A stretch of 64,000 bases of DNA from Gluconacetobacter asukensis (lineage in GTDB: Bacteria > Pseudomonadota > Alphaproteobacteria > Acetobacterales > Acetobacteraceae), in contig NZ_JABEQE010000006.1 of assembly GCF_014174375.1 (NCBI RefSeq), positions 1 through 64,000 on the forward strand, in the 5' to 3' direction. The notes below the pieces were generated by a model that saw only the letters and a list, made by a program, of their open reading frames with translations, searched no databases and was not told the DNA's origin. Every line of letters starts with the position of its first letter. Position 1 is the first letter of the stretch. The position numbers and the translations under genes are program-made. Shown here in pieces: positions 28,159-51,870 of this stretch.

Positions 28159-30015
28159 TCAGCCGCCAGCGTGAGTCACGCCCACGATCCGTGCCGGGGC
28201 GCCGGCGTGGCAATCAAGCACCAGCAGATCGTTCCCCGCCGGGCGCAGGAACTCCGCCGGACAGAAGAGACGTTGCTGGGGGCCGATCGACCAGAAGCGC
28301 CCCAGCGCGTGGCCATTGATCCAAGCATAACCTTTTTTCCATTCTGCCATGTCGATATAGGTGGCGCCGATGCCCGGCATGTCGAAGGTGGCGCGGTAAA
28401 GCCCCGCAGGGTGGCCGGGTACTGATGGGTGGCGGGTGGCTTGGGCAAGCCGTGCCGCGTCGAGGGGCAGGCCGAAGATCGTCCAGTCCCGGAGAGGCGC
28501 GCCGCCCAGCGTGACAGGGCCTTCCAACCCCTTGCGATCGCCCATGGCGAGGCCGAAGCCGATATGGCCGAAACTGTCCACCAGGATATCCAGTCGCCTC
28601 GACCCCGGCGCAGGCGCGATGACGAGTGGTGTCCTGGTCGGAAAGAGGCGTGATATTGCGGCGATTTCCGTGCCGTCGAGGATCAGGCGCGCGTCGTCGT
28701 GGACCGGCGGCAGGTGAAGCGGGCCGCCGCGACCGGCCGGGACGACGCAGCGATAGAGCGCCATGCCGCCGGGTTGTCGCAGGCCGCGTTCCATCGACAC
28801 CGGATCGCGGGCCCGGACCGGGTCGCCCAGCGCGTTCCACGGCGATCCGGCGGCACGCGCCATGACCGGGGCGAAGCCGAGGATCGGCGGGTCCGGAGGG
28901 ACGGGCGGAAGGGGAAGGTTCGTGGCGCGCGCGATCATGGTGCGCAGGGTGTGATATTTCGGCGTGGCGCGTCCGGCCTCGTCGATCGGCGCATCGTAAT
29001 CGTAGCTGGTCACCACGGGCTGGAAGCGGCTGCCGTCCCGATGGGCGTTCGCGCCCGCGCCGGAGCCGAAATTCGTCCCGCCATGGACGACATACAGGTT
29101 GAACGATGCCCGTTGATCCAGGATTTTCCGGAAATCCGGGACGAAATCGATCGTCGCCATGCTCTTCTCGCCCCAATGGGTCAGCCAGCCGGGATAGGCC
29201 TCGCTGATCCAGGGCGGCGTTTCCGTCGCCAGGTCGCGAGCCTGATCGAGCCGGTAGTCGCCGTCCAGCCCAATCGCGCAGCCGGACAGGATAGTGCGTT
29301 TCTCGCGCAGTTGGGCCAGCCCGTCGGCGGTGGTGCAGGCGCCGGTGATGCCGTGCCGGAACCAGGTGTCGCGGGTCCAGGCCATATAGGCGGGGTCGCC
29401 GCCGAAGGACGCATATTCGTTTTCGATCTGCGTCATCAGGATCGGGCCGCCGCGATCGGCCATGAAGGGGCGCACGGCCTGTGCGATGGTGGCGATATAG
29501 CGCCTGGCGGCGGCGAGGAAGGCGGGGTCCATGCTGCGGACGCGGATATCGCCGTCATAGAGCAGCCATGCGGGCAGGCCGCCGAAATCCCACTCGCCGC
29601 AGACATAGGGGCCAGGACGCAGGGAGACCCACAGTCCGGCCTGCTGGCACAGGGTCAGGAAGGTGCGGAAATCGCGCCGGTCCGTGGTCAGGTCGAACCG
29701 TCCGGGGGCGGGTTCGAGCATGTTCCACATCAGGTAGATGGCGATGGTGTTCAGTCCCATCGCCTTCGCCATCGCGATCCGCGCCGGCCATTCGCCGCGC
29801 GGGATGCGGATGGGGTGCATTTCGCCCGACCGGATCTGGAAGGGGGTGCCGTCGAGGCGGAAGCCGTCGCGATGCAGCGTGAAGGCGTGAGGCCGCCCGT
29901 CCGGTACCGGCTCCGGGCCGGGTGTGGCGGCCAGGAGCCGGCCGCCGGCTGTGAACAGGCCGACGGCCATGGAGCCGGAGAGGACGGCGCGGCGCCCGAA
30001 AACGGAGTGCGTCAC
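28159..30015 (-). CDS. Beta-galactosidase, GH35, exported
   Basis: A 618-aa retaining glycosidase. The N-terminus is a Tat-like signal (FGRRAVLSGSMAVGLFTAG). The GH35 barrel shows LRPGPYVCGEWDFGGLPAWLL, the acid/base Glu200 in QIENEYASF and the nucleophile Glu272 in SEAYPGWLTHWG. A jelly-roll C-terminus includes KGYAWINGHALGRFWSIGPQ. It removes terminal beta-linked galactose in the periplasm. The start is GTG 30015, overlapping the previous stop in GTGA; the upstream frame is the alpha-galactosidase gene. It is the last gene of the TonB receptor-glycosidase operon. Confidence 0.92.
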   Translation of the reverse strand: MTHSVFGRRAVLSGSMAVGLFTAGGRLLAATPGPEPVPDGRPHAFTLHRDGFRLDGTPFQIRSGEMHPIRIPRGEWPARIAMAKAMGLNTIAIYLMWNMLEPAPGRFDLTTDRRDFRTFLTLCQQAGLWVSLRPGPYVCGEWDFGGLPAWLLYDGDIRVRSMDPAFLAAARRYIATIAQAVRPFMADRGGPILMTQIENEYASFGGDPAYMAWTRDTWFRHGITGACTTADGLAQLREKRTILSGCAIGLDGDYRLDQARDLATETPPWISEAYPGWLTHWGEKSMATIDFVPDFRKILDQRASFNLYVVHGGTNFGSGAGANAHRDGSRFQPVVTSYDYDAPIDEAGRATPKYHTLRTMIARATNLPLPPVPPDPPILGFAPVMARAAGSPWNALGDPVRARDPVSMERGLRQPGGMALYRCVVPAGRGGPLHLPPVHDDARLILDGTEIAAISRLFPTRTPLVIAPAPGSRRLDILVDSFGHIGFGLAMGDRKGLEGPVTLGGAPLRDWTIFGLPLDAARLAQATRHPSVPGHPAGLYRATFDMPGIGATYIDMAEWKKGYAWINGHALGRFWSIGPQQRLFCPAEFLRPAGNDLLVLDCHAGAPARIVGVTHAGG

Positions 30016-31184
30016 CGGCTGGGGCCTTCGAGGCGCAGCAGGATGACGTCGCGGGCGGGGATCGTGAAACGTGTATGGGGGGTGAGCGGCCCGGTCTCGC
30101 GCCCCGTCCACAACTCGCGCGCACTCCGCTCCGTCATCGTGGCGCGCAATGCTGTTCCCGGTGTCGTGTCGATCGCATGATCGAGTGTATTGACCAGCGC
30201 GATGGCGGTTCCGCCGTCGGCAAGATGGCGCAGCCAGATCTGTACGGCGCCATTCCAGGAAACGAGGTGGCCAGGATGGGACGAAACGTCCTGGTCGATG
30301 GCGATGACGTCACGATTGGTCAGGATCGCACGAGTCTCCGGCGTCATGGCAGAGAGGTCGTTCCCCGCGATCAGCGGCGCGGCAAGCATGACCCACAGCG
30401 TCAGGTGCGTGCGTTCCGCGCCGGGGGCGGTCAGGTCCCCGTTGCCGATTTCCAGCATGTCCGGGTCGTTCCAATGGCCGGGTGGCGGATCGGGGATGGC
30501 CTGATCGCTCAGGGCATTGAACATCATGGCCGCGTAATCGGGGGTAATATCCGTCGTGGTGCGCCAGATCGTCCCGCCTGTCGAGGCGGCCCACTCCCAG
30601 ACACGGCTCCAGCCGTACGAACACAGGGCAAGAATGACCGTGCGGCCGGTCGCGTCCAGAGCGGTGCCCATGCGGCGATACGCATCGATCATCATGGCGC
30701 GCTGGCGGTCGAGGTCCTGCCCGGCGAGATGTCGGCGGAAGCCGCAGAGATCATATTTGAGATAGTCCACGCCCCAGGCGGCGAACCGGCGCGCATCCTG
30801 CGCTTCGTGCCCTTCGCTGCCCGGCCGTCCGGCGCATGTGCGCGCGCCGGGGGATGAATACAGCCCGAACCGCAAGCCTCGGCCGTGGATATAGTCGGCG
30901 AGCGCTTTCATGTCGGGAAAGCGGGAGGGATCGGGCTGCAGGTTGCCCTGTGCGTCGCGCTGGCCCTGCCAGCCGTCGTCGATGATGACAGTGCGATAGC
31001 CGGCTGCCGCCATGCCGCTGGAAAGAAGAGCATCCGCAGCGTGCCGGATGTCGGCGTCCCGGATCTTGTCGCCGTAATGGTTCCAACTGTTCCAGCCCAT
31101 GGGCGGCCCGGACGCGCGCGCGGGGCCGGTGGCCAGTGCCGCCATTGCGAGCAATGCCGCGCGTATCGTCCCGCGCGGCTGCAT
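30012..31184 (-). CDS. GH27 alpha-galactosidase or alpha-N-acetylgalactosaminidase, exported
   Basis: A 390-aa clan GH-D glycosidase with a signal peptide (AALLAMAALATGPARA). Family motifs are PPMGWNSWNHYG, TVIIDDGWQ, the nucleophile Asp145 in YLKYDLCG, and WNDPDMLEIGN with ITPETRAILTNRDVIAIDQD. In alpha-galactosidases the specificity loop reads CEWP or CEWG with a Glu; here it reads LCSYGW, with Ser at that place, as in human alpha-N-acetylgalactosaminidase (CSWP). Together with the aga-type genes next door this favours GalNAc. Its ATG overlaps the preceding stop in TGATG, and its own stop overlaps the beta-galactosidase start. Confidence 0.87.
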   Translation of the reverse strand: MQPRGTIRAALLAMAALATGPARASGPPMGWNSWNHYGDKIRDADIRHAADALLSSGMAAAGYRTVIIDDGWQGQRDAQGNLQPDPSRFPDMKALADYIHGRGLRFGLYSSPGARTCAGRPGSEGHEAQDARRFAAWGVDYLKYDLCGFRRHLAGQDLDRQRAMMIDAYRRMGTALDATGRTVILALCSYGWSRVWEWAASTGGTIWRTTTDITPDYAAMMFNALSDQAIPDPPPGHWNDPDMLEIGNGDLTAPGAERTHLTLWVMLAAPLIAGNDLSAMTPETRAILTNRDVIAIDQDVSSHPGHLVSWNGAVQIWLRHLADGGTAIALVNTLDHAIDTTPGTALRATMTERSARELWTGRETGPLTPHTRFTIPARDVILLRLEGPSR

Positions 31185-33169
31185 CAGGGTGTCAGCTCCA
31201 GCGTCATGACCTCGAATGGCGCCAACTGGATGACGACGGGCGTGGCGGCGTCCAGAGTCCGGGGCGCGGGAGATTTCGCCCACAAGGTATGCACGGTGTA
31301 GCGCATCGGCGCATCATCGGGCAGTTCGAGCACCTTGTCCGGTTCGATCAGGATGCGGCGCGGTACCTGGTCGGGATTGCGCAAGGTCAGGAAGGCCTTT
31401 TTGGGCGTCCAGGCCGCCCAGCCATAGGGTTCGAGGCGGCCGGGGTCGCCGCCGACCCAGTGGCTGTCCTTGAGTATCCCGGCGTTTGCCCGTGCCCATT
31501 TTGCCGTGTCGGCGATCACGTCCCAATCGGCGGGCTTGAGCAGGTCGGGTGTTAGATAGAGTTCCTGCTCGTCCGTGCCGGTGGCGAAGAAGCTGTGTAC
31601 TTCATCGGGGAAATCATGGCCGGGGTCGGCGTCGAGGCGCTGGTTCTTTTGTGCGTAGATGATGCCGTGCAGCATCAGGGAGTTCAGGGGGAAGAGTGGC
31701 GCCTTGACGACGATGTTGTGGTAGGTGTCCGAATCGCGGTAGGTGATCCAGCGCTGGCGCCTGGTGCCCACGCCGCGCAGCCAGAAGGGCGACGGGAAGG
31801 TGCCGGTCGTCAGGTTGATGAAGGTGTTGGGGCGGGCGGCGTAGATGTCGGCAATCAGGTGGATGGCGGCGTCGAAATCACTGTTGAACACGCTGCCGGG
31901 CGCGACCTGGTCGGCATTGCCGGTACCGTCGAACTTGAACTGGTTGATGCAATCTTCCTTCAGCATCCGCATGACGGCATCGTGGAAGACGGCATAATAT
32001 TTCGGTCCCGAAAGATCGAACCCGTCGTCGCGGATTTCCAGGCCGGCCTTGCGTCCATTGGCGACGCGGATCTGCTGCGGCTTGCTGTAGCCGCCCCAGG
32101 GGGACAGCCAGACGCCGGGAGCGGCGCCAAAGGACGAGGCCAGCGTGCAGAGCGGCCTGAAGCCGGCGGGGAAGTCCTTGCTGAACCGCCAGAAGCCGCT
32201 CCGGTCGTCCCATCCGTCGTCGAAAAGGTAGGAATCGAGCGTTACGCCCCGCTTGCGGACCAGTTCTTCGCCGATGGCGCGAATGCGGTTCTCGGCATCT
32301 TTCTGCGTGTAGGGCGTGAAATAGCCGATATCGTACCAGGAATTGTAGTTGAGGAACGGGCGGTAGGGATGGCTGCGCTCGCGCTCGACATAGATCTGGA
32401 AATCGCGGCGCAACTGGCCGTGGCGGACGATACCCGCGACGGCGGAGACGGTCAGCGCGTGGTCGGGTTGGATCGGCAGTGCCTGGGCCAGGGTCAACTG
32501 CGAGCGGCCGTTGAACACCAGGCTGTTGGCCAGCGGATTTTCGATGCCGAAATAGCTGTCATCGACGACAGCCGGCGAGCCCTGCACGTCGCCGACCACC
32601 TCGCCCGTTTCCACGTTGGCTTCGAACAGTGCCACGCTCTTCAATGAAAGAGGCCGGGTCTTTGGCGTCAGCGCCACGATTTCGCGCAGATAGGGCGATC
32701 CGTCGCGCTGTTCGACCCGCCAGGCGATTGTGAAACGGCCTTTCGGGTCGGTGAATTGTGCGGTGACGGCCCGGCCGGGCAGGCGGTCGGCCGCGCGTGC
32801 GCTGGTCGCGTCCGGCGCGATTGTCTCGACGCGCGGGGGCTGGATCACCGTCAGGTCGGCGCTGGAAATCGCTTTGCCGTCGGCGAGGGTGAGCGTGAAC
32901 AATCCGCGTAGCGTGATCGTCCTGTCATGGACGAGGTCGGAAAACCGGGGATCGACGAGTTTGCTGGCCTGGGTCGTCCCCAGGGTGGTTCCCAGGGCGG
33001 TCCATGACAGGCGGACGGCCTGGTTACCGAAGCTCTGGTGGACGGCGGCCAGATCGCCGGCGGGATTGCCGGGAGCCAGGACCAGGGTGTCGTCAGCCTG
33101 CGCCGGGGGAATCGCGGTCAGGGCACTTGAAGCCAGGATGGCGCAGACGACCAGTTTTTTCATGTTCAT
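31184..33169 (-). CDS. GH36-like alpha-galactosidase / alpha-N-acetylgalactosaminidase, exported
   Basis: A 661-aa protein with a Sec signal (VVCAILASSALTAIPPAQA). The N-terminal half is beta-rich, and the (beta/alpha)8 half has LNYNSWYDIGYF, LDSYLFDDGWDD and QFKFDGTG, whose Asp414 is in the position of the clan GH-D nucleophile. The barrel is closer to GH36 alpha-GalNAcase-like proteins (some databases label such proteins enterotoxin) than to raffinose-type alpha-galactosidases. It starts three bases after the TonB receptor stop. ATG 33163 is an equal start candidate. Substrate identity is inferred from neighbours. Confidence 0.75.
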   Translation of the reverse strand: MNMKKLVVCAILASSALTAIPPAQADDTLVLAPGNPAGDLAAVHQSFGNQAVRLSWTALGTTLGTTQASKLVDPRFSDLVHDRTITLRGLFTLTLADGKAISSADLTVIQPPRVETIAPDATSARAADRLPGRAVTAQFTDPKGRFTIAWRVEQRDGSPYLREIVALTPKTRPLSLKSVALFEANVETGEVVGDVQGSPAVVDDSYFGIENPLANSLVFNGRSQLTLAQALPIQPDHALTVSAVAGIVRHGQLRRDFQIYVERERSHPYRPFLNYNSWYDIGYFTPYTQKDAENRIRAIGEELVRKRGVTLDSYLFDDGWDDRSGFWRFSKDFPAGFRPLCTLASSFGAAPGVWLSPWGGYSKPQQIRVANGRKAGLEIRDDGFDLSGPKYYAVFHDAVMRMLKEDCINQFKFDGTGNADQVAPGSVFNSDFDAAIHLIADIYAARPNTFINLTTGTFPSPFWLRGVGTRRQRWITYRDSDTYHNIVVKAPLFPLNSLMLHGIIYAQKNQRLDADPGHDFPDEVHSFFATGTDEQELYLTPDLLKPADWDVIADTAKWARANAGILKDSHWVGGDPGRLEPYGWAAWTPKKAFLTLRNPDQVPRRILIEPDKVLELPDDAPMRYTVHTLWAKSPAPRTLDAATPVVIQLAPFEVMTLELTP

Positions 33170-33172
33170 GAA

Positions 33173-35659
33173 TCAGAAGCCCGTCGTGACTGAAAAGACA
33201 ATGCCGAAGCCACCGCCTACGACATAGGTGGGGGCCCTGCCGGCAAGCGTCGTGCCGTGAACGCCCGTCGTGGTCCTGGCATTGTAGCCGCCGTTGCCGG
33301 CCGCGAGATATTTGTTGTCCGTGACGTTCATGACATTGACCTGGACCTGGGGGGATTTGGCGATCCACAGTTTCTTGAATCGATAGCCCGCCGTCACGTT
33401 TCCGGTGGCATAGGCGGGCATGACCTGGTCGTTCATGAAGGTTGCGTATTGCGAACCGACATAGCTCATATACCCGTTGGCGAAGAAATTGCCGTTATCG
33501 TAGGAGAGCCCGACATTGACCGTGGTTTTCGGGCTGTAGGGTGCTATCTTGCCGGCGCTGCGGATGAAGTCGGTCTTGTCGGGTAGGTTGTTGTCCGTGG
33601 TGACGTGCAGATATTGGAACGACGCATAGGGGCTGAATCCGTGCCATGGCCGCAGGCCCGCCGCGAGCTGGAAGCCGCGCGAGGTCTGGCCGCCGGCATT
33701 CACGTAATTCGACACCAGCCGGCCGCCGATATAGCTGGAAATCGAACTCTGCTTGTTGGTCATGTTGTAGTTGAAGAACGACGCAGTGATGTTCACCAGG
33801 CCGGTGTGCCGGTAGCCGATTTCCTCGGAAATCGAGTATTCCGCCTTCAGGTTGGTCGAATGGGCCTCGTCGACGATCGGCGCAGAGCCGTCCCAGTATG
33901 TGCCGTAGACGAGGATACCGGTCGGTTCCATGAAGGCGGTCGCGCCGTCCAGATAGATCTGGTCGTGCGGCGTGATCTGGAAGGACGCGGAGACCTGTGG
34001 CAGAGGCTGGGCGTCGTTGCGGCCGTAATTATACATATCGCCCGGAATCGCATTCGTCGAATGATAGGACATCATGACGTATTTGAAGCCGGCATTCAGG
34101 GTCAGCCTGTCGCTCAGCGCCTTGTAGGTGTCTGAAATGAACAGGGAGTTGAGCTGCTGGATCAGGTGGATGTTGAACATCATCAGGGGCGCGCCGTCCT
34201 GGCCCCGGATCGGGTACATCCCCCAGTAATTCTCGCCTTCGCCATTGGCCCCGATTTGCGACAGTGGGGCGATTTCGTGCTGGTCGTAATAATTGTACCA
34301 GTAGCCGGCCTTCAGTTCGTTATGGCCGAGCTTCCAACTGAGCGTGTTGTTGAAACCAGCCGTGTGCTGGTTCCAGTTGTCGATGGCCAGTACCGACGCG
34401 TACCCGTCCTGAGCGTTGGGGATGTTGAGGTTTCCGGTGGGCTGGATGCCGTTATAGCCGTATTCCGCCTGGGTCTGCCCGTTATCGCCGGCGCCGTGGA
34501 TATGCACGTAATAAGGCGAGGATTCGAAGGTCAGGCCGTGGCCCAGATTGAAGGAGAGCGGCGCGCCGATGATGACGGAATGCTGCTCGGTCGCGTTGAG
34601 CTTGTAATAATTATAGTCGCCCGTCGTGTAGGTTGGGTCGTAATAAGCTGCTGAGCGGCCGTATTGCTTCCATTGCTGCATCGTGATGCTCATCAGATAC
34701 GGCTCACTGCTCTGATTGTAAGTCAGGAAGACGCGGGCGCTGTTTCCCTCGCCCCATTCCTTGAGCGCCATCGCATCGACATGTGAGCGGCGGCTGCGGC
34801 CCGGGCCGAGCCACATCGCATGGGTGCCGTAGGAGTAGGACGCGAATGTCTTGATGCCCGAATGGCCGATCTCGCCGCTGTCGAGGCGGATGAATTCGCG
34901 CGCGGCCTGATGGTTGCCGTAGCTGAGGTCGATCTTGCCGCCGAAATGATCGGCGGGGTCGGTCAGGGATTCCTTAATCGACCCCGCCAGGGCGTTGTAG
35001 ACCGGCATCGCGATGTCCGCCACGCCCTGTTGGACCGTGAGGTGGCTGATATTCTCGGTATCGGCGGCCTGCGACGTATAGGGGACGTAATGCGTCGGGT
35101 CGGCGGTGGGAATGCCGTTGAGCGTATAGCCGACCGAAGTCTGCCCCATGCCGCGCATATAGAAGCTGCTCTGGTCCGACTGGCCGAACGCGTCGGCATT
35201 GGAGAGCGTGACGCCGGGGACGTACTGGATCAGCGAGAGCGGATTGCTGGTGGGCGACTGTTTGGCGATGAAGTCGCGCGTGACGGTTTGCTGGGCCTGT
35301 GCCGCGGTTTCGGGGGCCAGCAGGCCGCCGCCGGGCGTCGTGTTCGTCACGCCGGTCGCATTGGAGACCGCTCCGGTTACCTGGATGTCCTCTCCCTTCG
35401 CGGAAGTCTTTGGGGCCGCCGCCGGCGCGGTGCGGCTGGATGTCGGGCGTGGATGATCGTGGCGGGGCGCCGTCCTGCCGGCCGGATCCGTGGTGGCCCC
35501 GAGCGCGGTTGAACAGGAGAGGAGAAAGGCAAGCTGTGACAGCAGGTCCACGGATCGGCGGGGAGATCGACGGGGCATTTGGCAACGGGATGATTGATTG
35601 TGATCGTGCTGGCTCATGGCATTGCTTCGCATTGCAAGGTTATGACGCAGTTTAGCCAT
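33173..35659 (-). CDS. TonB-dependent receptor for an oligosaccharide
   Basis: An outer-membrane barrel of up to 828 aa. A signal peptide (VDLLSQLAFLLSCSTALGA) is followed by a linker, a plug domain (VTRDFIAKQSPTSNPLSLIQYVPGVTLSN, FYMRGMGQTSVGYTLNGIP) and a 22-strand barrel ending in an aromatic residue (GGGFGIVFSVTTGF). No STN domain is evident, so it is not a sigma-regulating transducer. The true start may be ATG 35632 or 35617, nearer the signal peptide. It leads the operon of three glycosidases and is divergent from the DeoR/aga genes, so it should import a galactosamine- or galactose-containing glycan. Confidence 0.88.
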   Translation of the reverse strand: MAKLRHNLAMRSNAMSQHDHNQSSRCQMPRRSPRRSVDLLSQLAFLLSCSTALGATTDPAGRTAPRHDHPRPTSSRTAPAAAPKTSAKGEDIQVTGAVSNATGVTNTTPGGGLLAPETAAQAQQTVTRDFIAKQSPTSNPLSLIQYVPGVTLSNADAFGQSDQSSFYMRGMGQTSVGYTLNGIPTADPTHYVPYTSQAADTENISHLTVQQGVADIAMPVYNALAGSIKESLTDPADHFGGKIDLSYGNHQAAREFIRLDSGEIGHSGIKTFASYSYGTHAMWLGPGRSRRSHVDAMALKEWGEGNSARVFLTYNQSSEPYLMSITMQQWKQYGRSAAYYDPTYTTGDYNYYKLNATEQHSVIIGAPLSFNLGHGLTFESSPYYVHIHGAGDNGQTQAEYGYNGIQPTGNLNIPNAQDGYASVLAIDNWNQHTAGFNNTLSWKLGHNELKAGYWYNYYDQHEIAPLSQIGANGEGENYWGMYPIRGQDGAPLMMFNIHLIQQLNSLFISDTYKALSDRLTLNAGFKYVMMSYHSTNAIPGDMYNYGRNDAQPLPQVSASFQITPHDQIYLDGATAFMEPTGILVYGTYWDGSAPIVDEAHSTNLKAEYSISEEIGYRHTGLVNITASFFNYNMTNKQSSISSYIGGRLVSNYVNAGGQTSRGFQLAAGLRPWHGFSPYASFQYLHVTTDNNLPDKTDFIRSAGKIAPYSPKTTVNVGLSYDNGNFFANGYMSYVGSQYATFMNDQVMPAYATGNVTAGYRFKKLWIAKSPQVQVNVMNVTDNKYLAAGNGGYNARTTTGVHGTTLAGRAPTYVVGGGFGIVFSVTTGF

Positions 35660-35686
35660 GGGCGGTCAGGAGATTGCAATACAAAA

Positions 35687-35706
35687 ACGATCATAAACGA
35701 TCATAA
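35687..35706. promoter_or_regulatory. Tandem-repeat operator, TonB receptor side
   Basis: acgatcataa occurs twice back to back (35687-35696, 35697-35706), upstream of the TonB receptor gene. The same tandem occurs in front of the kinase gene at 36738. An inverted single half-site tgatcgtttt lies at 35851. Direct repeats with a 10-bp period fit DeoR-family regulators. Confidence 0.7.
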
Positions 35707-35928
35707 AAATTCCATTTTAAAAAATGTAATTAATACAGATAGTTAAATATATTTATTGTGTCGATCGTGGGGTTGTGTGGCGTATTGCGGCGAGAGAATG
35801 TCGGATTTTATCCGCGAATCGATTGGTCGTGGATCGGATCGATCTCTTTGTGATCGTTTTTCGCGTGCGAATTGAGAACGGGGGGAAATGATGCCAGAAT
35901 GTCGGGCCCATTCTGTCGGAGATTTTCC

Positions 35929-36720
35929 ATGCAGCCCGATCGATTGACCCAGATCCGCCATTACCTCTACCTCCATGGCATTACGGGAGTGAACGAACTG
36001 GCGCGTGTCGTGGATACGTCGGTCGTGACGGTGCGGCGCGACCTTCATCGCCTGGAAGAGCTGGGTCATGTGCGCCGGACGCATGGCGGGGCCGAAATCG
36101 TCAATTCCGGCGGGCTGGAAATCGGATTCGAGGCGCGCGAAAGTCATTGCCTGATGATCAAGCGTGCGATCGCCGAGGCGGCTTATGCGTCGCTGCGGCC
36201 GCATTCCTCGATTTTTCTCGATTCGGGCACGACGGTGCTGCAACTGGCGCGGCGCCTGCGGCTGGGGCCGATTCCACTGACCGTGTTCACCAACAGTATC
36301 GCCATCGTGCAGGCGCTGCTCGATACCCCGCAGCTTCAGCTCTGCCTGCTGGCGGGGCGTGTGCGGAACGAAAACCGTAGCATCGTCGGGCCTATGGCTG
36401 AACGATCCATCGAAGGGCTGTGGTTCGATCAGCTTTTTCTCGGCGCGAGCGCGGTGCAGCCCGATGGCGGGATCGCCACCCCCGATTGCGAGGAGGCCAG
36501 CCTGAATGCCGCCATGGTCCGGCGCGCGGGCGAACGGCTGCTGCTGATCGACAGCAGCAAGTTCGGGCGTCATGCGACGTTCCGTGTCGCGGGGCTGGAG
36601 GATCTGGGACATCTGATCACGGATGACGGTATTTCTGGCGAATGGCTCGCCCGCCTCGAACAGGCGGGGGTTGCCTGCACGCGGGTGCGGAGCGCGGGCG
36701 GTGAAGCGGGAGATGAGTGA
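35929..36720 (+). CDS. DeoR-family regulator, AgaR-like
   Basis: A 263-aa repressor. The DeoR HTH is at the N-terminus (RLTQIRHYLYLHGITGVNELARVVDTSVVTVRRDLHRLEELGHVRRTHGGA). The sugar-phosphate-binding DeoRC domain follows, with IFLDSGTTVLQLARRL, TVFTNSIAIVQALLD and LFLGASAVQPDGGIATPDCEEASLN. ATG 35929 has GGAGA six bases upstream; the in-frame 35872 start is not supported. It lies between the TonB/glycosidase operon and the aga-type operon, and the same operator is found in front of both, so it probably represses both until a galactosamine or tagatose phosphate appears. Confidence 0.9.
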   Translation: MQPDRLTQIRHYLYLHGITGVNELARVVDTSVVTVRRDLHRLEELGHVRRTHGGAEIVNSGGLEIGFEARESHCLMIKRAIAEAAYASLRPHSSIFLDSGTTVLQLARRLRLGPIPLTVFTNSIAIVQALLDTPQLQLCLLAGRVRNENRSIVGPMAERSIEGLWFDQLFLGASAVQPDGGIATPDCEEASLNAAMVRRAGERLLLIDSSKFGRHATFRVAGLEDLGHLITDDGISGEWLARLEQAGVACTRVRSAGGEAGDE

Positions 36721-36737
36721 CGGGCGGGTCGGGCATA

Positions 36738-36757
36738 TCGATCATAAACGATCATAT
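36738..36757. promoter_or_regulatory. Tandem-repeat operator, aga side
   Basis: tcgatcataaacgatcatat repeats the cgatcata unit twice with 10-bp spacing, as at 35687. A TTGACA-like -35 lies just downstream (36765), so a bound repressor would block the promoter of the kinase operon. Confidence 0.68.
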
Positions 36758-36835
36758 AAATGACTTGACATGAGAGCTTTCTGATCGGAAGCATCGGGTC
36801 ATCGCACGACACACCTGTTGGTCGGAGGAAAGAAC

Positions 36836-37813
36836 GTGCCGCACGCTTCCGGCGAGCCCTGCCTTTTGGCGATGGATAGTGGCGGGTCGAAGACGCTGCT
36901 CGTCCTGATCGATCGGCATGCCACGGTGCTGGCGGTGCGCCAGGCCGGCGGCACCAATCCGTTCGATCGGCCGGACTGGCGGGACGAGATGGCCGGATTG
37001 CTGGCGGACCTGCCTGGCGGCATCGTCGCCGCCGCTTTCGGCATGGCCGGCTATGGCGGCAGCCCGGCGGTCAGCGCCCGGCAGGACGAGGTGCCGGCGG
37101 AATGGGGGCGGTGTCCGTACGTCGTGCGCAACGATGTCGATATCGCCTGTGTCGGCGCGTTCGGCGGCGGCCCCGGCATCCTGCTGCTGGCGGGGACCGG
37201 GTCGATGGTCTGGGCGGCGGACTCGGCCGGGCGCGGCCTTCGGGTCGGCGGATGGGGACATCTGTTCGGCGATGAGGGCAGTGCCTTCTGGATCGGGCGC
37301 GAGGCGCTGGGCACCCTGACGCGGGCGGTGGACGGGCGGGAGCCGGATGCCGCGTCCTTCATTGCCCCGTTCTGCCGGTTCATGGGGCTGTCGGACGATC
37401 CCGCCGGGATCGAGGCCGCCCTGCTGGACTGGTATGGCGGTCTGCACCATGCGCGGTCGGAGGTGGCGGCGTTGACGCGTGGCGTCGACATGCTGGCGGC
37501 GGCGGGCAACGGGCCGGCGCGGCGGATCGTGGAACGGGCGGCGGCGCATCTGGCCCGGCATGTCGGCGCGGCGCGGCGGATGCTGGCGCTGCCCGGCCTG
37601 GCCTGGTGCGATGCCGGCGGGGCGTTTCGGAACGCGTCGCTCCGCCGGGCGGTCATCGATCTGTGCGGCGTGCCGGCGGCCCCGATCCTGCCGCCCGTCG
37701 GCGGCGCGGCGCTGCTGGCGGCCCGGCGGGCGGGGTGGGACCCCGATGCGGCCTGGATCGTGAGGCTGGCAGCCGGCCTGACCGATGCCGGCCTGTTCGC
37801 CCAGGCGCCCTGA
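36836..37813 (+). CDS. BadF/BcrA-family sugar kinase (AgaK-like)
   Basis: A 325-aa ASKHA kinase. Phosphate-1 motif MDSGGSKTLLVLID, phosphate-2 motif LLAGTGSMVW and the GGWGHLFGDEGSAFWIG segment are those of N-acetylhexosamine kinases of this family. It would phosphorylate free GalNAc (or GlcNAc) at C6 after uptake. GTG 36836 has GGAGGA well placed; TTG 36818 is not supported. It is the first gene of the operon kinase-isomerase-AgaZ-permease-deacetylase. Confidence 0.85.
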   Translation: MPHASGEPCLLAMDSGGSKTLLVLIDRHATVLAVRQAGGTNPFDRPDWRDEMAGLLADLPGGIVAAAFGMAGYGGSPAVSARQDEVPAEWGRCPYVVRNDVDIACVGAFGGGPGILLLAGTGSMVWAADSAGRGLRVGGWGHLFGDEGSAFWIGREALGTLTRAVDGREPDAASFIAPFCRFMGLSDDPAGIEAALLDWYGGLHHARSEVAALTRGVDMLAAAGNGPARRIVERAAAHLARHVGAARRMLALPGLAWCDAGGAFRNASLRRAVIDLCGVPAAPILPPVGGAALLAARRAGWDPDAAWIVRLAAGLTDAGLFAQAP

Positions 37814-37874
37814 TCCGGCCCGATGCCGAATATCCACACGAATATCCAAACGGAAGCAAAGGCAACGATTGACC

Positions 37875-38828
37875 ATGAACGCAACGGAACGCGGCATCCG
37901 CGAGCAATTCCCGCTATGGGACAAGCTGGTCATGGACGGGGTGCGGCCGCGTGCCGGTCTGGTCCATGTGGTGGTGGGGTGTGGCACGTCGGTCCATATC
38001 GCGGATTCGATCGCCGCGGCGCTGAACATGCACGGGGTGCTGGCTCGCGCGGTGCCGGGCAACGAATGGACGCGGCGGCGGGACAATTACGTGCCGGCGG
38101 CCATTGCGCCGCATGTCGTCGCCCTGTCGCGCAGCGGCGAATCGACCGAGACGGTAGCCGCGGCCGCGGCCAGCCGGGCGGCCGGCCTGGCGGTCACGGC
38201 CTTCTGCTGCGCGCCGGGCAGTGCGCTGTGCCACAATGCCGATGAAATCGTGTTGGCCGAAACCCATCCCGAGGAAGGGATCGTGATGACGGCCTCAGCC
38301 AGCCTGATGCTGCTGATGGGCCTGCGCTATGCCGGGATCGCCGTCGGGCCCGAGACCACGAAGGCTGCCGAGGTGCTGCTGCGCGCGGCCGACCCGGTTC
38401 TGCCGGGGCTGATCGCGGGGCGGTCGCATTTCGTCTTCCTGGGGGCTGGGGCGCTGTATGGCGTGGCGCGCGAGGGCGCGCTGAAACTGCAGGAAATGAG
38501 CCTGAGCCAGACCGAGGCGCATCATCCGCTGGAATATCGTCATGGCCCGATCAGCCTGGTCGACGATCGCTCCTGCGTCGTCATGCTGTATCATCCGGAT
38601 ACGATCGAGGAGGAAGCGCGGCTTGCGCGGGAATTGATGGCGAAGGGAGCGCGGGTGCTGGGACTGGGCGGACCGGGTAGCATCGAACTGTCCGTTGACG
38701 GTCTGGCCGCCGTGCTGCCGCTGCTGTGCCTGCCCGTGCTGCAATTGCTGGGCGAATATGTGGCGCGCCAGCGCGGGCTGGACACGCTGGCACCCCGCCA
38801 CCTGACCAAAGTCGTGACGGTCGCCTGA
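37875..38828 (+). CDS. agaS: SIS-domain sugar-phosphate isomerase/deaminase (AgaS-like)
   Basis: A 317-aa protein with two SIS domains (VVVGCGTSVHIADSIAAAL, VVALSRSGESTETVAAAAA; HFVFLGAGALYGVAREGALKLQEMSLSQTEAHHPLEYRHGP). The glutaminase domain of GlmS is absent, as in AgaS and NagB-II. It should convert galactosamine-6-phosphate to tagatose-6-phosphate and ammonia. The AgaZ-type gene next to it favours AgaS over a glucosamine-6-phosphate enzyme. Confidence 0.84.
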   Translation: MNATERGIREQFPLWDKLVMDGVRPRAGLVHVVVGCGTSVHIADSIAAALNMHGVLARAVPGNEWTRRRDNYVPAAIAPHVVALSRSGESTETVAAAAASRAAGLAVTAFCCAPGSALCHNADEIVLAETHPEEGIVMTASASLMLLMGLRYAGIAVGPETTKAAEVLLRAADPVLPGLIAGRSHFVFLGAGALYGVAREGALKLQEMSLSQTEAHHPLEYRHGPISLVDDRSCVVMLYHPDTIEEEARLARELMAKGARVLGLGGPGSIELSVDGLAAVLPLLCLPVLQLLGEYVARQRGLDTLAPRHLTKVVTVA

Positions 38829-38855
38829 GCGGTCGTGGCCGGAAGGAAATATTTC

Positions 38856-40160
38856 ATGTCCCTGGCCTTATTCGGCGCGCTGGTCGCGCAGGCGCATGAT
38901 CCGTCGGTACCGCGCGCCGCGCGGGTCGGGTTGCCATCGGTCTGCTCGGCGCATCCGCTGGTGCTGGAGGCCGCGCTGGCGCGCGCCGGGCGCACCGGGC
39001 GCCCGGTTCTGATCGAGGCGACCTGCAACCAGGTCAATCAGGAAGGGGGCTATACCGGCATGACGCCGGCCGATTTCCGCGACATGGTATGGCGCATCGC
39101 GGATCAGGCTGGTTGCCCGCGCGGGCTGGTCCTGCTGGGAGGAGACCATCTGGGCCCCAACCCGTGGAAATCGCTGCCGCCCGATGAGGCGATGCGCCGG
39201 GCGGATGCGATGATCGCGGCCTATGCCGAGGCCGGCTTCGTGAAGCTGCATCTGGATGCCAGCATGGGATGCGGGGGCGAACCCGCCGCCCTGGCCGACG
39301 ATGTCGTGGCCGGGCGGGCCCGCGCGCTGGCGGCGCGGGCCGAGGCCGTGGCCCCGGGACAGGCGGTGTATGTCATCGGGACCGAAGTGCCGGTGCCCGG
39401 CGGCGTGAGCGGCGCATCGGATCATCTGGACCATGTGGTCCCGACCACGCCCGACGCGGCCCTGCGCACCCTGGCGGTGCATGAGGCGGCGTTCCGCCCC
39501 ACGTTGGGAGACGACGTCTGGTCGCGGGTGATCGCGCTGGTTGTGCAGCCGGGGGTGGAATTCGATGCCGAGGACGTGGCCGTCTACCGCCGCGATCCCG
39601 CCCAGCCGCTGGCGGCCACGTTGGCCGCGATGCCGGGCCGGGTGTTCGAGGCGCATTCGACCGACTATCAGCCGGAATCCGCGTTGCGCGCGCTGGTCGA
39701 GGACGGGTTCGCGCTGCTGAAAGTGGGACCGGGCCTGACCTTCGCGCTCCGCGAGGCGCTGTATGCGCTGGACGCGGTGCGCGCGGTGCTGTGTCCCGGT
39801 AGCGAAAGCCTGCGCGAGACGATGGAGCAGGTCATGACGGGCGCGCCCGGCCATTGGACCGGTCATTATGCGGGATCGCCCGTGCGGCAGGCGATGTTGC
39901 GCCATTACGGTTACAGCGACCGGATCCGCTATTACTGGCCGTCCGCCGCCGCGGAGGCGGCGGTGGGGCGGCTGTTCGCCGATCTGGAGGAAGGCGGCCT
40001 GCCGGATGCGCTGCTGCGCCAGTTCCTGCCGGCCGTCAGTGCGCGCGTGCGCGCCGGCGCGGTCGCGCGCACGCCGCGGGCCATTGTCCTGGCCGCGATC
40101 GATCAGGTGCTGAAGGAATACGCGCGGGCCTGTGTGCCGGCCGGGCCGCGACGCGCATGA
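38856..40160 (+). CDS. agaZ: Class II tagatose-bisphosphate aldolase non-catalytic subunit / AgaZ-type protein
   Basis: A 434-aa GatZ/KbaZ/AgaZ protein. Seen are IEATCNQVNQEGGYTGMTPADF, LGGDHLGPNPWKSLP, FVKLHLDASMGCGGEP, EVPVPGGVSGASDHLDH, FEAHSTDYQPESALRALVEDGFALLKVGPGLTFALREALYAL and RIRYYWPSAAAEAAVGRL. In enterics the family supports the aldolase KbaY/GatY; in PTS-independent Aga pathways AgaZ has been linked to the tagatose-6-phosphate kinase step. No GatY-type gene is present in the window. ATG 38856 follows AAGGAAATATTTC. Its TGA overlaps the permease ATG. Confidence 0.9.
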   Translation: MSLALFGALVAQAHDPSVPRAARVGLPSVCSAHPLVLEAALARAGRTGRPVLIEATCNQVNQEGGYTGMTPADFRDMVWRIADQAGCPRGLVLLGGDHLGPNPWKSLPPDEAMRRADAMIAAYAEAGFVKLHLDASMGCGGEPAALADDVVAGRARALAARAEAVAPGQAVYVIGTEVPVPGGVSGASDHLDHVVPTTPDAALRTLAVHEAAFRPTLGDDVWSRVIALVVQPGVEFDAEDVAVYRRDPAQPLAATLAAMPGRVFEAHSTDYQPESALRALVEDGFALLKVGPGLTFALREALYALDAVRAVLCPGSESLRETMEQVMTGAPGHWTGHYAGSPVRQAMLRHYGYSDRIRYYWPSAAAEAAVGRLFADLEEGGLPDALLRQFLPAVSARVRAGAVARTPRAIVLAAIDQVLKEYARACVPAGPRRA

Positions 40161-41455
40161 CGCGCCACCAGCCCCCGCCGCGTGGGCCGGCCGGCGATTT
40201 CGGCTGGGCGCCGCTGGCGATCATCGCCGGGCTGTTCTTCGTCATCGGATTCGTCACCTGGCTGAACGGCCCGCTGATCTCGTTCGTGCAGGTTGCGTTC
40301 TCGCTGGATGATGTCGGCGCGTTTTTTATTCCGCTGGTCTTCTACCTGTCCTATTTCCTGTTCGCGCTGCCGTCGTCGGCGGTCGCGCGGCGGATGGGGT
40401 TGAAGCGCGGGCTTGCGCTCGCCCTTCTGGTCATGGCCGTGGGGAGCGCGCTGTTCGGCCAGTTCGTCGCCAGCCGCTGGTATGCTGGCGCGCTGGCGGG
40501 GCTGCTGGTGCTGGGCGCTGGGCTGGCGCTGTTGCAGGTGACGGCGAACCCGTATGTCAGCCTGCTGGGACCTCCGGCGCGGGCTGCCCAGCGCATTGCT
40601 ATCATGGGGATCTGCAACAAATTCGCCGGCATCCTGGCGCCGGTCGCGCTGGCCGTGCTGGCTATGCGCGATATCGGCGGCGTGGCGCAGCGCGCGCGGG
40701 CAGCATCCGACCCGATGGCGCGCGAGGCGATCCTGGTCGGCTTCGTGCGGGCGATCTATTGGCCCTATATGGGCATGGCGGCGGTTCTGGTGGCGATGTC
40801 GGCCGCGATCGTCCTGTCGCCGTTGCCTGACCTGGATGTGCCGTCGCTGCCGCCGTCGCGCCGGGCGGAGGCCGGCTGGAAGGCGTATGTCCTCCAGCCG
40901 CACCTGCTGGCCGGGATCGGGGCGATGTTCCTGTATGTCGGTGTCGAGGTCATGGCGGGGGATGCGATCGGTACCTATGGTCGGGGGCTGGGGTTGCCGC
41001 TGGATCAGACCCGCTTTTTCACCGCCCTGACGCTGGCGGCGATGATGCTGGGCTATCTGGGCGGATTGCTGGCGGTGCCGCGCCTGTTGCGGCAGGAACG
41101 CTGCATGGAACTGTCCTGTCTGGCGGGCTGTGTGCTGACCGTGCTGGCCTGGGCCACGCATGGCTATGTCTCGGTGCTGTGTGTGGCGCTGCTGGGCCTG
41201 AGTAATGCGATGATCATGCCGGCCCTGTTTCCGATCGCCATCCGGGACGCGGGCGCCTTTACGCCTCTGGCCTCGGCGCTGCTGGTCATGGCGTTCTGCG
41301 GTGGCGCGGTCATGCCGCAATTTTATGTCTGGCTGAAGCCGGTTGTAGGCTTTCAACGCCTGTTCGCGATGCTGGTGCTGCCGTCGTATCTTGCCATCCT
41401 TTTCTACAGTCGGCATTTCGGACGTGAACGGCTGCCGATCGCGGAGGAATCATGA
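40157..41455 (+). CDS. FucP-type MFS sugar permease (AgaP/NagP-like)
   Basis: A 432-aa transporter with 12 predicted helices. FucP/GluP family features are WAPLAIIAGLFFVIGFVTWLNGPLI at the start, FALPSSAVARRMGLKRGL between helices, LQVTANPYVSLLGP, and IGAMFLYVGVEVMAGDAIGTY in the second half. It imports a hexose or N-acetylhexosamine with protons. ATG 40157 overlaps the AgaZ stop in ATGA, and its own stop overlaps the next ATG the same way, so the three genes are translationally coupled. GalNAc is the likely substrate from context. Confidence 0.88.
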   Translation: MTRHQPPPRGPAGDFGWAPLAIIAGLFFVIGFVTWLNGPLISFVQVAFSLDDVGAFFIPLVFYLSYFLFALPSSAVARRMGLKRGLALALLVMAVGSALFGQFVASRWYAGALAGLLVLGAGLALLQVTANPYVSLLGPPARAAQRIAIMGICNKFAGILAPVALAVLAMRDIGGVAQRARAASDPMAREAILVGFVRAIYWPYMGMAAVLVAMSAAIVLSPLPDLDVPSLPPSRRAEAGWKAYVLQPHLLAGIGAMFLYVGVEVMAGDAIGTYGRGLGLPLDQTRFFTALTLAAMMLGYLGGLLAVPRLLRQERCMELSCLAGCVLTVLAWATHGYVSVLCVALLGLSNAMIMPALFPIAIRDAGAFTPLASALLVMAFCGGAVMPQFYVWLKPVVGFQRLFAMLVLPSYLAILFYSRHFGRERLPIAEES

Positions 41456-42570
41456 CGTCGTCTCCAGCTTTGGAGGGCCGGGTCGTCCTGCCCCAGCGGA
41501 TCATGCCGGGGCGCATTGCCTTCGACGGGCATATCCGCGAGATCGCGGCGTGCCCGGATGCACCGCGACACTATATCCTGCCCGGCTTCATCGATTGCCA
41601 TGTCCATGGCGGCGACGGTGCGGACACCATGGACGGGGTGGCGGCGATCGGGCGCCTGTCGCGCTTTCATCTGTCGCACGGAACCACGACGATCCTGCCG
41701 ACGACCATTACCCGTCCCTGGCCGGATGTCATGGATGCCCTGCGCGCGATCGCCGAGGTGCGTCGGGTGGGCGTGGCGAATGGTCCCGACATCCATGGCG
41801 CGCATCTGGAAGGGCCGTTCGTCAGCCCGCACAAGCTTGGCGCGCAGCCGCCCTACGCCATCGCACCCGGTCCCGAGGTGGTACGAGAGGCGCTGGAGAC
41901 CGGCATTGTACGCGTGGTGACCCTGGCGCCGGAACTGGACCATGCCGAAAGCGCCATGCAGGCTTTCGCTCGCGCGGGGGTGCGGATCAGTCTGGGCCAT
42001 ATGACGGCCGATTACGAACGGACCGAGCAGGCGATCTGCACGATCTGTGCCGCCGGCGGTACGGTGGGGGCGACGCATCTGTTCAATGCCATGGCGCCGA
42101 TCGAGGGACGCCGCCCCGGCCCCGTTGCGGCGTTGATGTGCAGCGATGTGGCCTATGCCGAAATGATCCTGGACACGCATCACGTTCACCCCGCCACCTT
42201 CCGCATGGCGGCGCGCCTGATGGAGGGACGGCTGCTGCTGGTGACGGACGCGATGCGCGGTACGGGCCTGCCGGATGGGCCGAGCCAGTTGGGCGGGCAG
42301 GATGTGATGATCAAGGACGGGGTGGTACGCTTGCCGGGCGGGTCGCTGGCGGGCAGCGTGCTGACCCTGGATGTCGCCTTGCGCAACGCCGTGGAAAGTG
42401 GTGGCGTGTTGCTGACGCGTGCCGCAGACTTGGCCAGCGGTGCCCCCGCGCGCTATCTGGGCCTGTATGACCGGGGCGTTCTGGCGGTGGGGCGCCGGGC
42501 CGACTTCGTCGTAATGGACGAGGATCTGCGGGTTCGGCAGGTGTGGGTGGCCGGACAGCAGGTCGTCTGA
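41452..42570 (+). CDS. N-acetylhexosamine-6-phosphate deacetylase (NagA/AgaA)
   Basis: A 372-aa amidohydrolase. ILPGFIDCHVHGGDGADTMD carries the metal-binding HxH, GAHLEGPFVSPHKLGAQP the catalytic-site Glu, ATHLFNAMAPIEGRRPGPVAAL and DTHHVHPATFR further His, and LVTDAMRGTGLPDG the catalytic Asp. It removes the acetyl group from GalNAc-6-P or GlcNAc-6-P. It is the last gene of the operon and overlaps the permease stop by ATGA. NagA and AgaA cannot be told apart by eye; the operon favours AgaA. Confidence 0.9.
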   Translation: MTSSPALEGRVVLPQRIMPGRIAFDGHIREIAACPDAPRHYILPGFIDCHVHGGDGADTMDGVAAIGRLSRFHLSHGTTTILPTTITRPWPDVMDALRAIAEVRRVGVANGPDIHGAHLEGPFVSPHKLGAQPPYAIAPGPEVVREALETGIVRVVTLAPELDHAESAMQAFARAGVRISLGHMTADYERTEQAICTICAAGGTVGATHLFNAMAPIEGRRPGPVAALMCSDVAYAEMILDTHHVHPATFRMAARLMEGRLLLVTDAMRGTGLPDGPSQLGGQDVMIKDGVVRLPGGSLAGSVLTLDVALRNAVESGGVLLTRAADLASGAPARYLGLYDRGVLAVGRRADFVVMDEDLRVRQVWVAGQQVV

Positions 42571-43772: not shown

Positions 43773-43801
43773 ATAAGCAAGGAGAAGGTGCGCGCCGTCT
43801 G

Positions 43802-44668
43802 TCAGGGTGTGCTGCCGGCATGTAGCAGCCGGTGCAGGGCCAGTGCGGCGTCGGGGCGGTTCAGCGTGTAGACATGCAGGTCGGTCACGCCGTGATCGTG
43901 CAATTGGCGGCACAGTTCCGCCGTGACGGTGGTGGTGACCATGGCGCGCGCGCCGGGATGGTCGTCCAACCCGTCGAACAGGCGGCGCATCCAGTCCGGC
44001 ACATGGGCGCCGCACATTTCGGCGAAGCGATAGGCTTGGGCGATGTTGGCGACCGGCAGGATGCCCGGCACGATCTCGGTCGTGATGCCGGCGGCCGTGG
44101 CACGGTCGCGGAAGCGCAGGAAGGTTTCGGCCTCGAAGAAGAACTGGGTGAGGGCACGGGTGGCGCCGGCGTCGATCTTGGCCTTCAGATGATCCAGGTC
44201 GGCGGCCGGGCTGATGGCGGCGGGATGGGTTTCCGGATAGGCGGCGACCGAGATTTCGAACGGCGCGATGCGGCGCAGGCCGGCGACCAGTTCCACCGCC
44301 CCGGCATAGCCGTCGGGATGGGCGACGAAGGGGGCGCCGAGTTCGGACGGGTCGCCCCGCAGGGCCACGATATGCCGCACGCCTGCATCCCAATAGGCGC
44401 GGGCGACGGCGTCGACCTCGGCGCGGGTGGCGTCGACGCAGGTCAGATGGCCCGCGACTGGCACATTGGTTTCGCGCACCAGTTCGGCGACCGTCTGCAG
44501 CGTGCGGTCGCGGGTCGAGCCGCCGGCGCCGTAGGTGACGGAGATGAAGCGCGGGCCGAGCGGGGCCAGGACCGATGCGGTCTGCCGCAGCGCCTCGGCC
44601 ATCTTCGGCGTCTTGGGCGGGAAGAATTCGAACGAGAGCCCGGGGCCGGGGGGCTGGGACAGGGACAT
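43802..44668 (-). CDS. metF: Methylenetetrahydrofolate reductase
   Basis: A 288-aa FAD-dependent TIM barrel. It reduces 5,10-methylene-THF to 5-methyl-THF, the methyl donor for methionine synthase. Motifs are LSFEFFPPKTPKM with the catalytic Glu, FISVTYGAGGSTRDRT, AHLTCVDATRAEVD, IVALRGDPS and TRALTQFFFEAETFLRF. ATG 44668 fits the family start and follows AAGGAA; the open frame to 44878 is out of family. It lies 40 bp after the ArsR-methyltransferase gene, in the same operon. metE at 53 kb uses its product. Confidence 0.93.
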   Translation of the reverse strand: MSLSQPPGPGLSFEFFPPKTPKMAEALRQTASVLAPLGPRFISVTYGAGGSTRDRTLQTVAELVRETNVPVAGHLTCVDATRAEVDAVARAYWDAGVRHIVALRGDPSELGAPFVAHPDGYAGAVELVAGLRRIAPFEISVAAYPETHPAAISPAADLDHLKAKIDAGATRALTQFFFEAETFLRFRDRATAAGITTEIVPGILPVANIAQAYRFAEMCGAHVPDWMRRLFDGLDDHPGARAMVTTTVTAELCRQLHDHGVTDLHVYTLNRPDAALALHRLLHAGSTP

Positions 44669-44708
44669 ATGGCCGGTTCCTTGGAAGCGGAAAAAGGAAA
44701 GAAGCGGG

Positions 44709-45647: not shown

Positions 45648-45658
45648 GAAGGAGTGAT

Positions 45659-45689
45659 ATAATGATATCCTTATATATGCAAATTATAT
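45659..45689. promoter_or_regulatory. Methionine regulon motif, copy 1
   Basis: A 31-bp AT-rich motif, with core gatatccttatat and then gcaaattat, lies immediately before the ArsR-methyltransferase start. It matches 52822-52852 upstream of the cobalamin riboswitch at 28 of 31 positions in the same orientation. This is probably the binding site of the ArsR-methyltransferase. Confidence 0.7.
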
Positions 45690-45730
45690 CGCTTCCTGGG
45701 GGATGTCTCCGTTCATGACCCCCAATAGCG

Positions 45731-45765
45731 ACGCGGCCGCCGGACAATGTGTCCGGCGGCCGCGT
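45731..45765. terminator. Strong hairpin downstream of fdhL
   Basis: A perfect 16-bp GC-rich stem acgcggccgccggaca with its complement and a 3-nt loop, in the gap between the ArsR-methyltransferase promoter and the fdhL end. It would isolate the fdh transcript. Confidence 0.65.
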
Positions 45766-45783
45766 GTCTGGAGCCTTGGGCCG

Positions 45784-45808
45784 TGATGAGGTGGGGGGCA
45801 CCTCATCA
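45784..45808 (-). terminator. Second hairpin downstream of fdhL
   Basis: Stem tgatgaggtg/cacctcatca (10 bp) with loop ggggg, located 20 bp after the fdhL stop codon. It is likely the first terminator of the operon. Confidence 0.5.
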
Positions 45809-45828
45809 TGGCGGAGATGTTGAGAAAC

Positions 45829-47463: not shown

Positions 47464-47491
47464 GAGTGAATCTCTCCTGTTTTCCGGCGGC

Positions 47492-48931: not shown

Positions 48932-48943
48932 GATACGCCCCGG

Positions 48944-51823: not shown

Positions 51824-51841
51824 TCGTCTCTTGACGCTCCG

Positions 51842-51870
51842 CAGGCGTGGCCCACAATGGGCCACGCCTG
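51842..51870 (+). terminator. Hairpin after the porin gene
   Basis: A perfect 13-bp stem caggcgtggccca/tgggccacgcctg with loop caa starts 18 bp after the porin stop. No T-run follows, so it may be an attenuator or mRNA-stabilising hairpin before the next gene. Confidence 0.55.

Follow-up and report, generated by a model that had tools for sequence, protein, structure and literature searches.

The window analyzed here is the whole 64,000-nucleotide stretch at positions 1 to 64,000 of contig NZ_JABEQE010000006.1 of Gluconacetobacter asukensis. A first-pass annotation had described in it a complete, phosphotransferase system (PTS)-independent locus for the use of galactosamine glycans in an acetic acid bacterium, which the host indeed is. 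All ten genes that it named, a TonB receptor and three glycosidases facing a DeoR regulator and a five-gene operon, are present between about 28.2 and 42.6 kb, with coordinates and orientation about as first described. The minus-strand half holds a TonB-dependent outer-membrane receptor (33173..35659; PF07715, E 1.2e-13), a GH36-like exported protein of 661 residues with DDGW and KFD motifs (31184..33169), a member of the GH27 alpha-galactosidase/alpha-N-acetylgalactosaminidase family (30012..31184, start refined; PF16499, E 3.3e-56, and PDB matches) and a member of the GH35 beta-galactosidase family (28159..30015, start refined; PF01301, E 3.5e-91, the best PDB matches being beta-galactosidases). 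The plus-strand half begins with a DeoR-family, AgaR/GlpR-like regulator, placed at a conserved ATG (35929..36720) within an open reading frame (ORF) of 35872-36720. It continues with a BadF-type sugar kinase, a proposed amino-sugar 6-kinase (36818..37813; PF01869, E 6.1e-23), a putative amino-sugar-6-phosphate deaminase/isomerase with two SIS domains (37875..38828), and an AgaZ/GatZ/KbaZ family protein, proposed here as a tagatose-6-phosphate 4-epimerase (38835..40160; PF08013, E 2.1e-161; PDB 3txv and 2fiq). The last two genes encode a FucP/GluP/NagP-type major facilitator superfamily (MFS) permease (40157..41455) and a NagA-type N-acetylhexosamine-6-phosphate deacetylase (41452..42570). Family matches of this strength, the strongest at E 2.1e-161, indicate that the locus is more than a set of chance ORFs.

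Gene coupling and a shared upstream repeat

Coupling of the parts by overlapping stops and starts had been proposed, and it holds at four junctions, each overlapping by 1 or 4 nt: TGATG between the GH36-like and GH27 genes (1 nt), GTGA between GH27 and GH35, and ATGA at both the AgaZ/permease and permease/deacetylase boundaries. It does not hold for the kinase and SIS genes, separated by 61 nt, nor for the SIS gene and agaZ, separated by 6 nt. The view of the parts as one system gained from a second feature, an operator-like tandem repeat with 10-bp spacing that occurs in both intergenic regions, ahead of each half. One copy lies between the TonB and deoR genes (35687..35703) and the other, with 1 mismatch, 5' of the kinase gene (36738..36754). 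Both are kept in Gluconacetobacter liquefaciens (L003) and Acidomonas methanolica (L002), and the related locus L041 has only the TonB-side copy. A scan of the window allowing up to 2 mismatches gave 3 matches where 0.04 were expected; the third falls within the start of the TonB gene. Across the genome (4.39 Mb, up to 1 mismatch) there were 3 matches, 2 of them in the locus and the third within a TonB-like coding sequence, and a reversed-pattern control gave 0. The exact repeat was found in 8 of 91 loci, only in the window, L002/L035, L003/L034, L041 and L075, and is therefore not common to all relatives. Judging from the shared repeat, the two halves are apparently one co-regulated system, and we infer that the DeoR protein binds the repeat. 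The regulator itself falls under the cut-off of all ten NCBIfam models listed, and scores 161.2 bits against the AgaR model NF040755 (cut-off 260). The G+C fraction over window positions 33000-36000, which span the TonB gene and the divergent promoter region, is 0.58-0.60, compared with 0.65 window-wide.

AgaZ in a genome without a class II aldolase

The AgaZ protein scores 537.7 bits against PF08013 (gathering cut-off 26.7). All seven residues proposed as metal ligands and catalytic residues of Escherichia coli GatZ are kept in it, as they are in 32 of 32 AgaZ rows aligned; PDB 2fiq is, judging from its length and numbering, GatZ. The same residues are described as conserved across PF08013-type proteins (PMC11907403, in excerpt), so they indicate that the site is intact without telling the possible roles apart. 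Two such roles have been put forward: E. coli GatZ and KbaZ convert fructose-6-phosphate to tagatose-6-phosphate, a C4-epimerase activity (PMC11907403, in excerpt), and AgaZ has been proposed as a tagatose-6-phosphate kinase in N-acetylgalactosamine (GalNAc) pathways (PMC12118421, in excerpt). A third is that of a subunit of the bisphosphate aldolase. PF01116, the class II aldolase family, had 0 hits in the genome but was found in 11 of 14 control genomes (class I enzymes were not searched), and PF00365, the PfkA-type phosphofructokinase, was likewise absent (9 of 14 controls positive). Since AgaZ could serve as a bisphosphate aldolase subunit only with a class II partner, which the genome lacks, it is better read as an epimerase. 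The role of aldolase subunit is unlikely on these grounds, and epimerization of tagatose-6-phosphate to fructose-6-phosphate fits best. Among 30 of the 48 AgaZ-positive genomes of the family, our own included, PF01116 was absent from 16 and present in 14. In those 14 it is on a different contig from agaZ or, in G149 and G062, more than 100 kb away from it; these are drafts, so the real distance across contigs is not fixed.

The neighbors of agaZ in relatives bear on its substrate. After removal of L034 and L035, which repeat L003 and L002, there were 32 distinct agaZ loci. Nine of these carry SIS and BadF kinase genes adjacent to agaZ, and 21 carry a tagatose-kinase homologue adjacent or one gene away; in the remaining 2 the homologue is 6 kb off (L053) or the stretch ends before (L020). 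The reference protein for the tagatose kinase, the only one scored, reaches 455.3 bits (NCBIfam cut-off 420). Both kinds of partner would supply tagatose-6-phosphate, which is therefore likely to be the common intermediate. The SIS-linked AgaZ proteins form one group (support 97/89) in a tree where L053 and L020 were labeled with the kinase group. Operons of tagatose kinase and AgaZ, mostly with a short-chain dehydrogenase, occur in many Acetobacteraceae (L042:8190-11214, L040, L044-L052), and these probably serve polyol or tagatose use via the same epimerase.

The classical alternative is that tagatose-6-phosphate is phosphorylated, by AgaZ or by a PfkB-type kinase, and then cleaved by a class I aldolase. 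The genome does encode FruK (303.2 bits, above the cut-off of 292) and also a Pfk-2-like kinase that stays under its cut-off (186 bits against 353), and the proposed kinase role of AgaZ (PMC12118421, in excerpt) would serve this route as well. Set against it are the lack of PF01116 in the genome, the LacC model, which is not reached (150.8 and 105.1 bits, cut-off 409.55), the absence of any such kinase or aldolase from the genes of the locus, and the epimerase activity seen for GatZ and KbaZ (PMC11907403, in excerpt). We regard the classical route as very unlikely, and retain the epimerase reading. The idea that the genome holds no tagatose-6-phosphate kinase candidate does not stand in view of the FruK and Pfk-2-like kinases. 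Fructose-type PTS genes (enzyme I, FruK and IIB) lie at contig C1:268000-277500 (L100). Thus "PTS-independent" applies to the locus, which contains no PTS gene, and not to the organism.

Exported glycosidases and a deletion in the GH36-like gene

All three glycosidases have signal-peptide-like N-termini as judged by eye, that of GH35 being twin-arginine-like. The GH27 and GH35 proteins are clear members of their families (PF16499, 191.1 bits, cut-off 23; PF01301, 306.5 bits, cut-off 27). The GH36-like protein matched neither a Pfam nor an NCBIfam family at E 0.001. A profile search gave a weak match to the alpha-galactosidase 6lcj (E 0.015), comparison with the profile of the window's GH27 was uninformative (probability 7%), and a structure predicted from a three-sequence alignment was unusable (mean predicted local distance difference test score 28). 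Its family was found in 2 of 385 Alphaproteobacteria genomes, namely that of the window and one more, where 0 of 6 neighboring ORFs scanned was a sugar gene.

The GH36-like ORF is open. It lacks, near 31780, 15 residues that every one of nine distinct aligned homologues has (in ten rows, of which L002 and L035 are one organism), a loss that corresponds to a 45-bp in-frame deletion. In L003 the corresponding segment holds an Asp 54 residues past the Asp of the KFD motif, and by analogy with GH27 and GH36 enzymes this Asp is the predicted acid/base. A DDGW motif, a KxD nucleophile and an acid/base Asp are the marks by which membership of GH36 and clan GH-D was judged. A short direct repeat, one of whose two copies is exact in L003, may have mediated the deletion. 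The ratio of nonsynonymous to synonymous substitution rates (dN/dS) of this gene on the window branch is 0.10, so the loss would be a recent one or else an assembly error. The locus is thus complete in that every gene is there, and incomplete in that the GH36-like enzyme carries this deletion.

The GH27 gene is absent at the corresponding place in L002, L003 and L072, and was therefore probably gained in the window's lineage; GH27 may now substitute for the GH36-like enzyme. At a pocket position that is Glu in two alpha-galactosidases aligned with it (1uas and 6f4c), GH27 has Ser, a hint of possible GalNAc tolerance that was set aside.

Distribution and synteny in relatives

AgaZ matches were found in 48 of 397 genomes of the family (one very weak) and the GH36-like protein in 11 of 397, one of these (G189) having only fragments with stops. 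AgaZ is commoner in the GH36-like genomes than expected by chance (7 of 11 versus 48 of 397, relatedness not corrected). Within the genus, 4 of the 14 genomes listed have a match, G376 being of the tagatose-kinase type and G388 fragmentary. AgaZ is 86% identical in both A. methanolica and G. liquefaciens, and the TonB receptor 89-92%.

The ten window proteins were searched against 20 agaZ regions, L002, L003 and 8 further stretches, seven of them around relatives' GH36-like genes and one around a second nagA of the window's own genome. Among these regions the whole set apart from GH27 occurs, in the same order, in L003 only (L034 is the same place). Gene order is thus conserved in G. liquefaciens, and the other relatives have partial clusters. 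L002 has everything through agaZ, GH27 again excepted. L041 has GH35, GH36-like, TonB, DeoR, kinase, SIS and AgaZ genes; in L036 and L037 the DeoR gene is joined by the five-gene operon, and none of the glycosidases is matched; L038 and L039 carry the kinase, SIS and AgaZ genes, the DeoR gene and a 42-44% identical permease lying apart from them; and L043 has TonB, kinase, SIS and AgaZ. In L073-L077 a GH36-like gene is accompanied by varying TonB, GH35, GH27, DeoR and SIS genes.

The right flank is common to the window and L003 up to 43786, where the L003 alignment jumps to 55454; window positions 43786-55454 (about 11.7 kb, just to the right of the locus) have no counterpart there in L003. 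An OprB carbohydrate-selective porin gene lies at 50309-51823, about 8 kb past the locus. Genome G364, of the same genus, shares both flanks (L072). It lacks what lies between the N-terminus of the GH36-like protein and that of the permease, so that truncated GH36-like and permease genes are left (L072:8774-10631) without the TonB-to-AgaZ part.

These remnants raise the question of whether the locus is decaying and no longer supports glycan use in the strain. The loss of the predicted acid/base segment points in that direction, as do the missing part in G364 and the stop-containing GH36-like fragments of G189, which adjoin a SIS gene (L078:536-1894). Against decay, the other nine ORFs are open, both repeat copies are retained and GH27 may stand in for the GH36-like enzyme. 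In addition, dN/dS for the seven genes compared (TonB, GH36-like, GH35, DeoR, kinase, SIS and AgaZ; permease, deacetylase and GH27 were left out) was 0.05-0.31 between the window and its two nearest relatives and 0.05-0.25 on the window branch. We consider decay quite unlikely.

The proposed pathway

A receptor, a permease, a kinase, a deacetylase and a SIS enzyme stand together at the locus with no PTS gene, as in a PTS-independent GalNAc (Aga) system. We think it fairly likely that the locus is a DeoR-controlled, outer-membrane-to-cytoplasm system for scavenging galactose- and GalNAc-containing glycans, ending in an AgaZ epimerase with no aldolase partner. The TonB receptor would import oligosaccharides, which the GH36-like, GH27 and GH35 enzymes would trim in the periplasm, and the MFS permease would take in GalNAc. 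The BadF kinase would form GalNAc-6-phosphate, the NagA-type enzyme would deacetylate it, and the SIS enzyme would deaminate galactosamine-6-phosphate to tagatose-6-phosphate. AgaZ would then convert tagatose-6-phosphate to fructose-6-phosphate at C4, again with no aldolase partner, and the carbon would join the pentose-phosphate or Entner-Doudoroff routes. At the level of sequence this proposal is supported by gene content, order, overlaps, the shared repeat, the absence of a class II aldolase and of a PfkA-type phosphofructokinase, and the epimerase residues. Every substrate named is putative, and so are the mucin and insect O-glycans suggested in the first-pass annotation and the epimerase step in vivo.

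Several observations weigh against this proposal. The AgaZ protein, at 559.3 bits, is just under the cut-off of the agaZ_gatZ model TIGR02810 (568.8), and the genome has the FruK and Pfk-2-like kinases described above. The GH36-like enzyme of the window is probably impaired by its deletion. The SIS protein, the kinase and the permease are all under their matched equivalog cut-offs and lean to models of the N-acetylglucosamine (GlcNAc) type. The SIS protein had been called AgaS-type, a label that the curated models do not bear out: it scores 69.6 bits against the AgaS model TIGR02815, under the cut-off of 529.2, and 133.1 against GlmD (cut-off 580), and by these scores it resembles GlmD more than AgaS. 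The kinase is under every NCBIfam model listed (NagK_SO3507, 61.2 bits, cut-off 370), and for the permease the one model passed is the broad GluP model TIGR01272 (253.5 bits, cut-off 202.55; NagP, 272 versus 625). The deacetylase, present as predicted, can be specified further as NagA-type, since it passes the NagA model TIGR00221 (237.9 bits, cut-off 225.65). A second nagA, 72% identical to that of the window, lies at contig C1:199402-200388 (L071:9388-10587). Its neighbors are a further TonB receptor gene and genes for an ABC peptide-type transporter, and the stretch around it has no kinase or SIS match. The genome also has three unclassified PF01182 hits, one at 229 bits, so a NagB-type deaminase elsewhere is possible. 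Among relatives, neither permease nor deacetylase was matched in the 1.6 kb between agaZ and the contig end in L002, or after agaZ in L041. The GH36-like gene occurs with no AgaZ match in the genome in G001, G048, G189 (fragments) and G364, and in L075, L076 and L078 a SIS gene stands beside a TonB gene, a GH36-like gene or both with no agaZ in the stretch. These last two patterns show that the halves can exist separately, and GlcNAc may therefore be a co-substrate; because of them we hold the proposal less firmly.

Much of this evidence would suit a GlcNAc or general N-acetylhexosamine pathway, in which the kinase, NagA and the SIS enzyme take GlcNAc-6-phosphate to fructose-6-phosphate and AgaZ is a side branch. 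The NagA model is passed, the equivalog models that score best are GlmD for the SIS protein, NagK_SO3507 for the kinase and NagP for the permease (all under cut-off), and the SIS gene is found without a nearby agaZ in L075, L076 and L078. That pathway has no need of AgaZ, which sits between the SIS and permease genes in the operon; the glycosidases are of GH27, GH35 and GH36-like types and not of chitin or hexosaminidase types; and a second NagA is available elsewhere in the genome. The nine SIS-agaZ loci are no test here, since they were fetched by their agaZ. We judge a GlcNAc pathway unlikely, and still read AgaZ, as first suggested, as pointing to a galacto-configured sugar.

Comparison with known systems

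The closest published counterpart is the PTS-independent Aga pathway of Shewanella, with omp-Aga, AgaP, AgaK, AgaA-II and AgaS (PMC2996990 and PMC12118421, in excerpt). In both systems a TonB receptor, permease, kinase, deacetylase and SIS deaminase take the place of the PTS (same excerpts); the comparison rests on published descriptions and not on direct sequence comparison. The present locus differs in its NagA-type deacetylase, its GlmD-like SIS protein, the three exported glycosidases attached to it, the lack of a class II aldolase in the genome and its acetic acid bacterial host. With the E. coli aga/kba operon it shares a DeoR-family regulator, a SIS deaminase, a Z protein and a deacetylase (PMC12118421, in excerpt). 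That operon has a PTS and the class II aldolase KbaY, whereas here there are a permease and a kinase and no class II aldolase. The AgaZ protein has all seven proposed active-site residues in common with E. coli GatZ and KbaZ of the same family (PF08013). An Agrobacterium PF08013 enzyme is reportedly a tagatose-6-phosphate 4-epimerase (Wichelecki, 2015). Unlike those enzymes, AgaZ would here receive tagatose-6-phosphate made from an amino sugar and not from tagatose or a polyol. The locus is thus of a known kind, that of the Shewanella Aga pathway; its host group is new, and its end is apparently free of an aldolase.

Among the papers listed in literature searches that covered open-licence articles, none described such a locus in acetic acid bacteria, and a review of the products of these bacteria records, in excerpt, no more than that Gluconobacter oxidizes galactosamine to its acid (PMC9171043). 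A 2025 review, in excerpt, gives AgaZ/KbaZ in amino-sugar catabolism as an aldolase subunit or a proposed tagatose-6-phosphate kinase (PMC12118421), and the epimerase activity of GatZ and KbaZ in E. coli dates from 2025 (PMC11907403, in excerpt). A more far-reaching version of our proposal, to which we give tentative and limited credence, is that the GalNAc pathway of acetic acid bacteria ends in a standalone tagatose-6-phosphate 4-epimerase, yielding fructose-6-phosphate without tagatose-bisphosphate, that AgaZ may play this part in GalNAc loci generally, and that the GH36-like protein is the founder of a new clan GH-D family acting on galactose- and GalNAc-containing glycans. An AgaZ kept in an amino-sugar operon, in a genome that lacks class II aldolases, offers a natural test of what this protein does, and the locus suggests that bacteria known chiefly as oxidizers of simple sugars may also forage for glycans.

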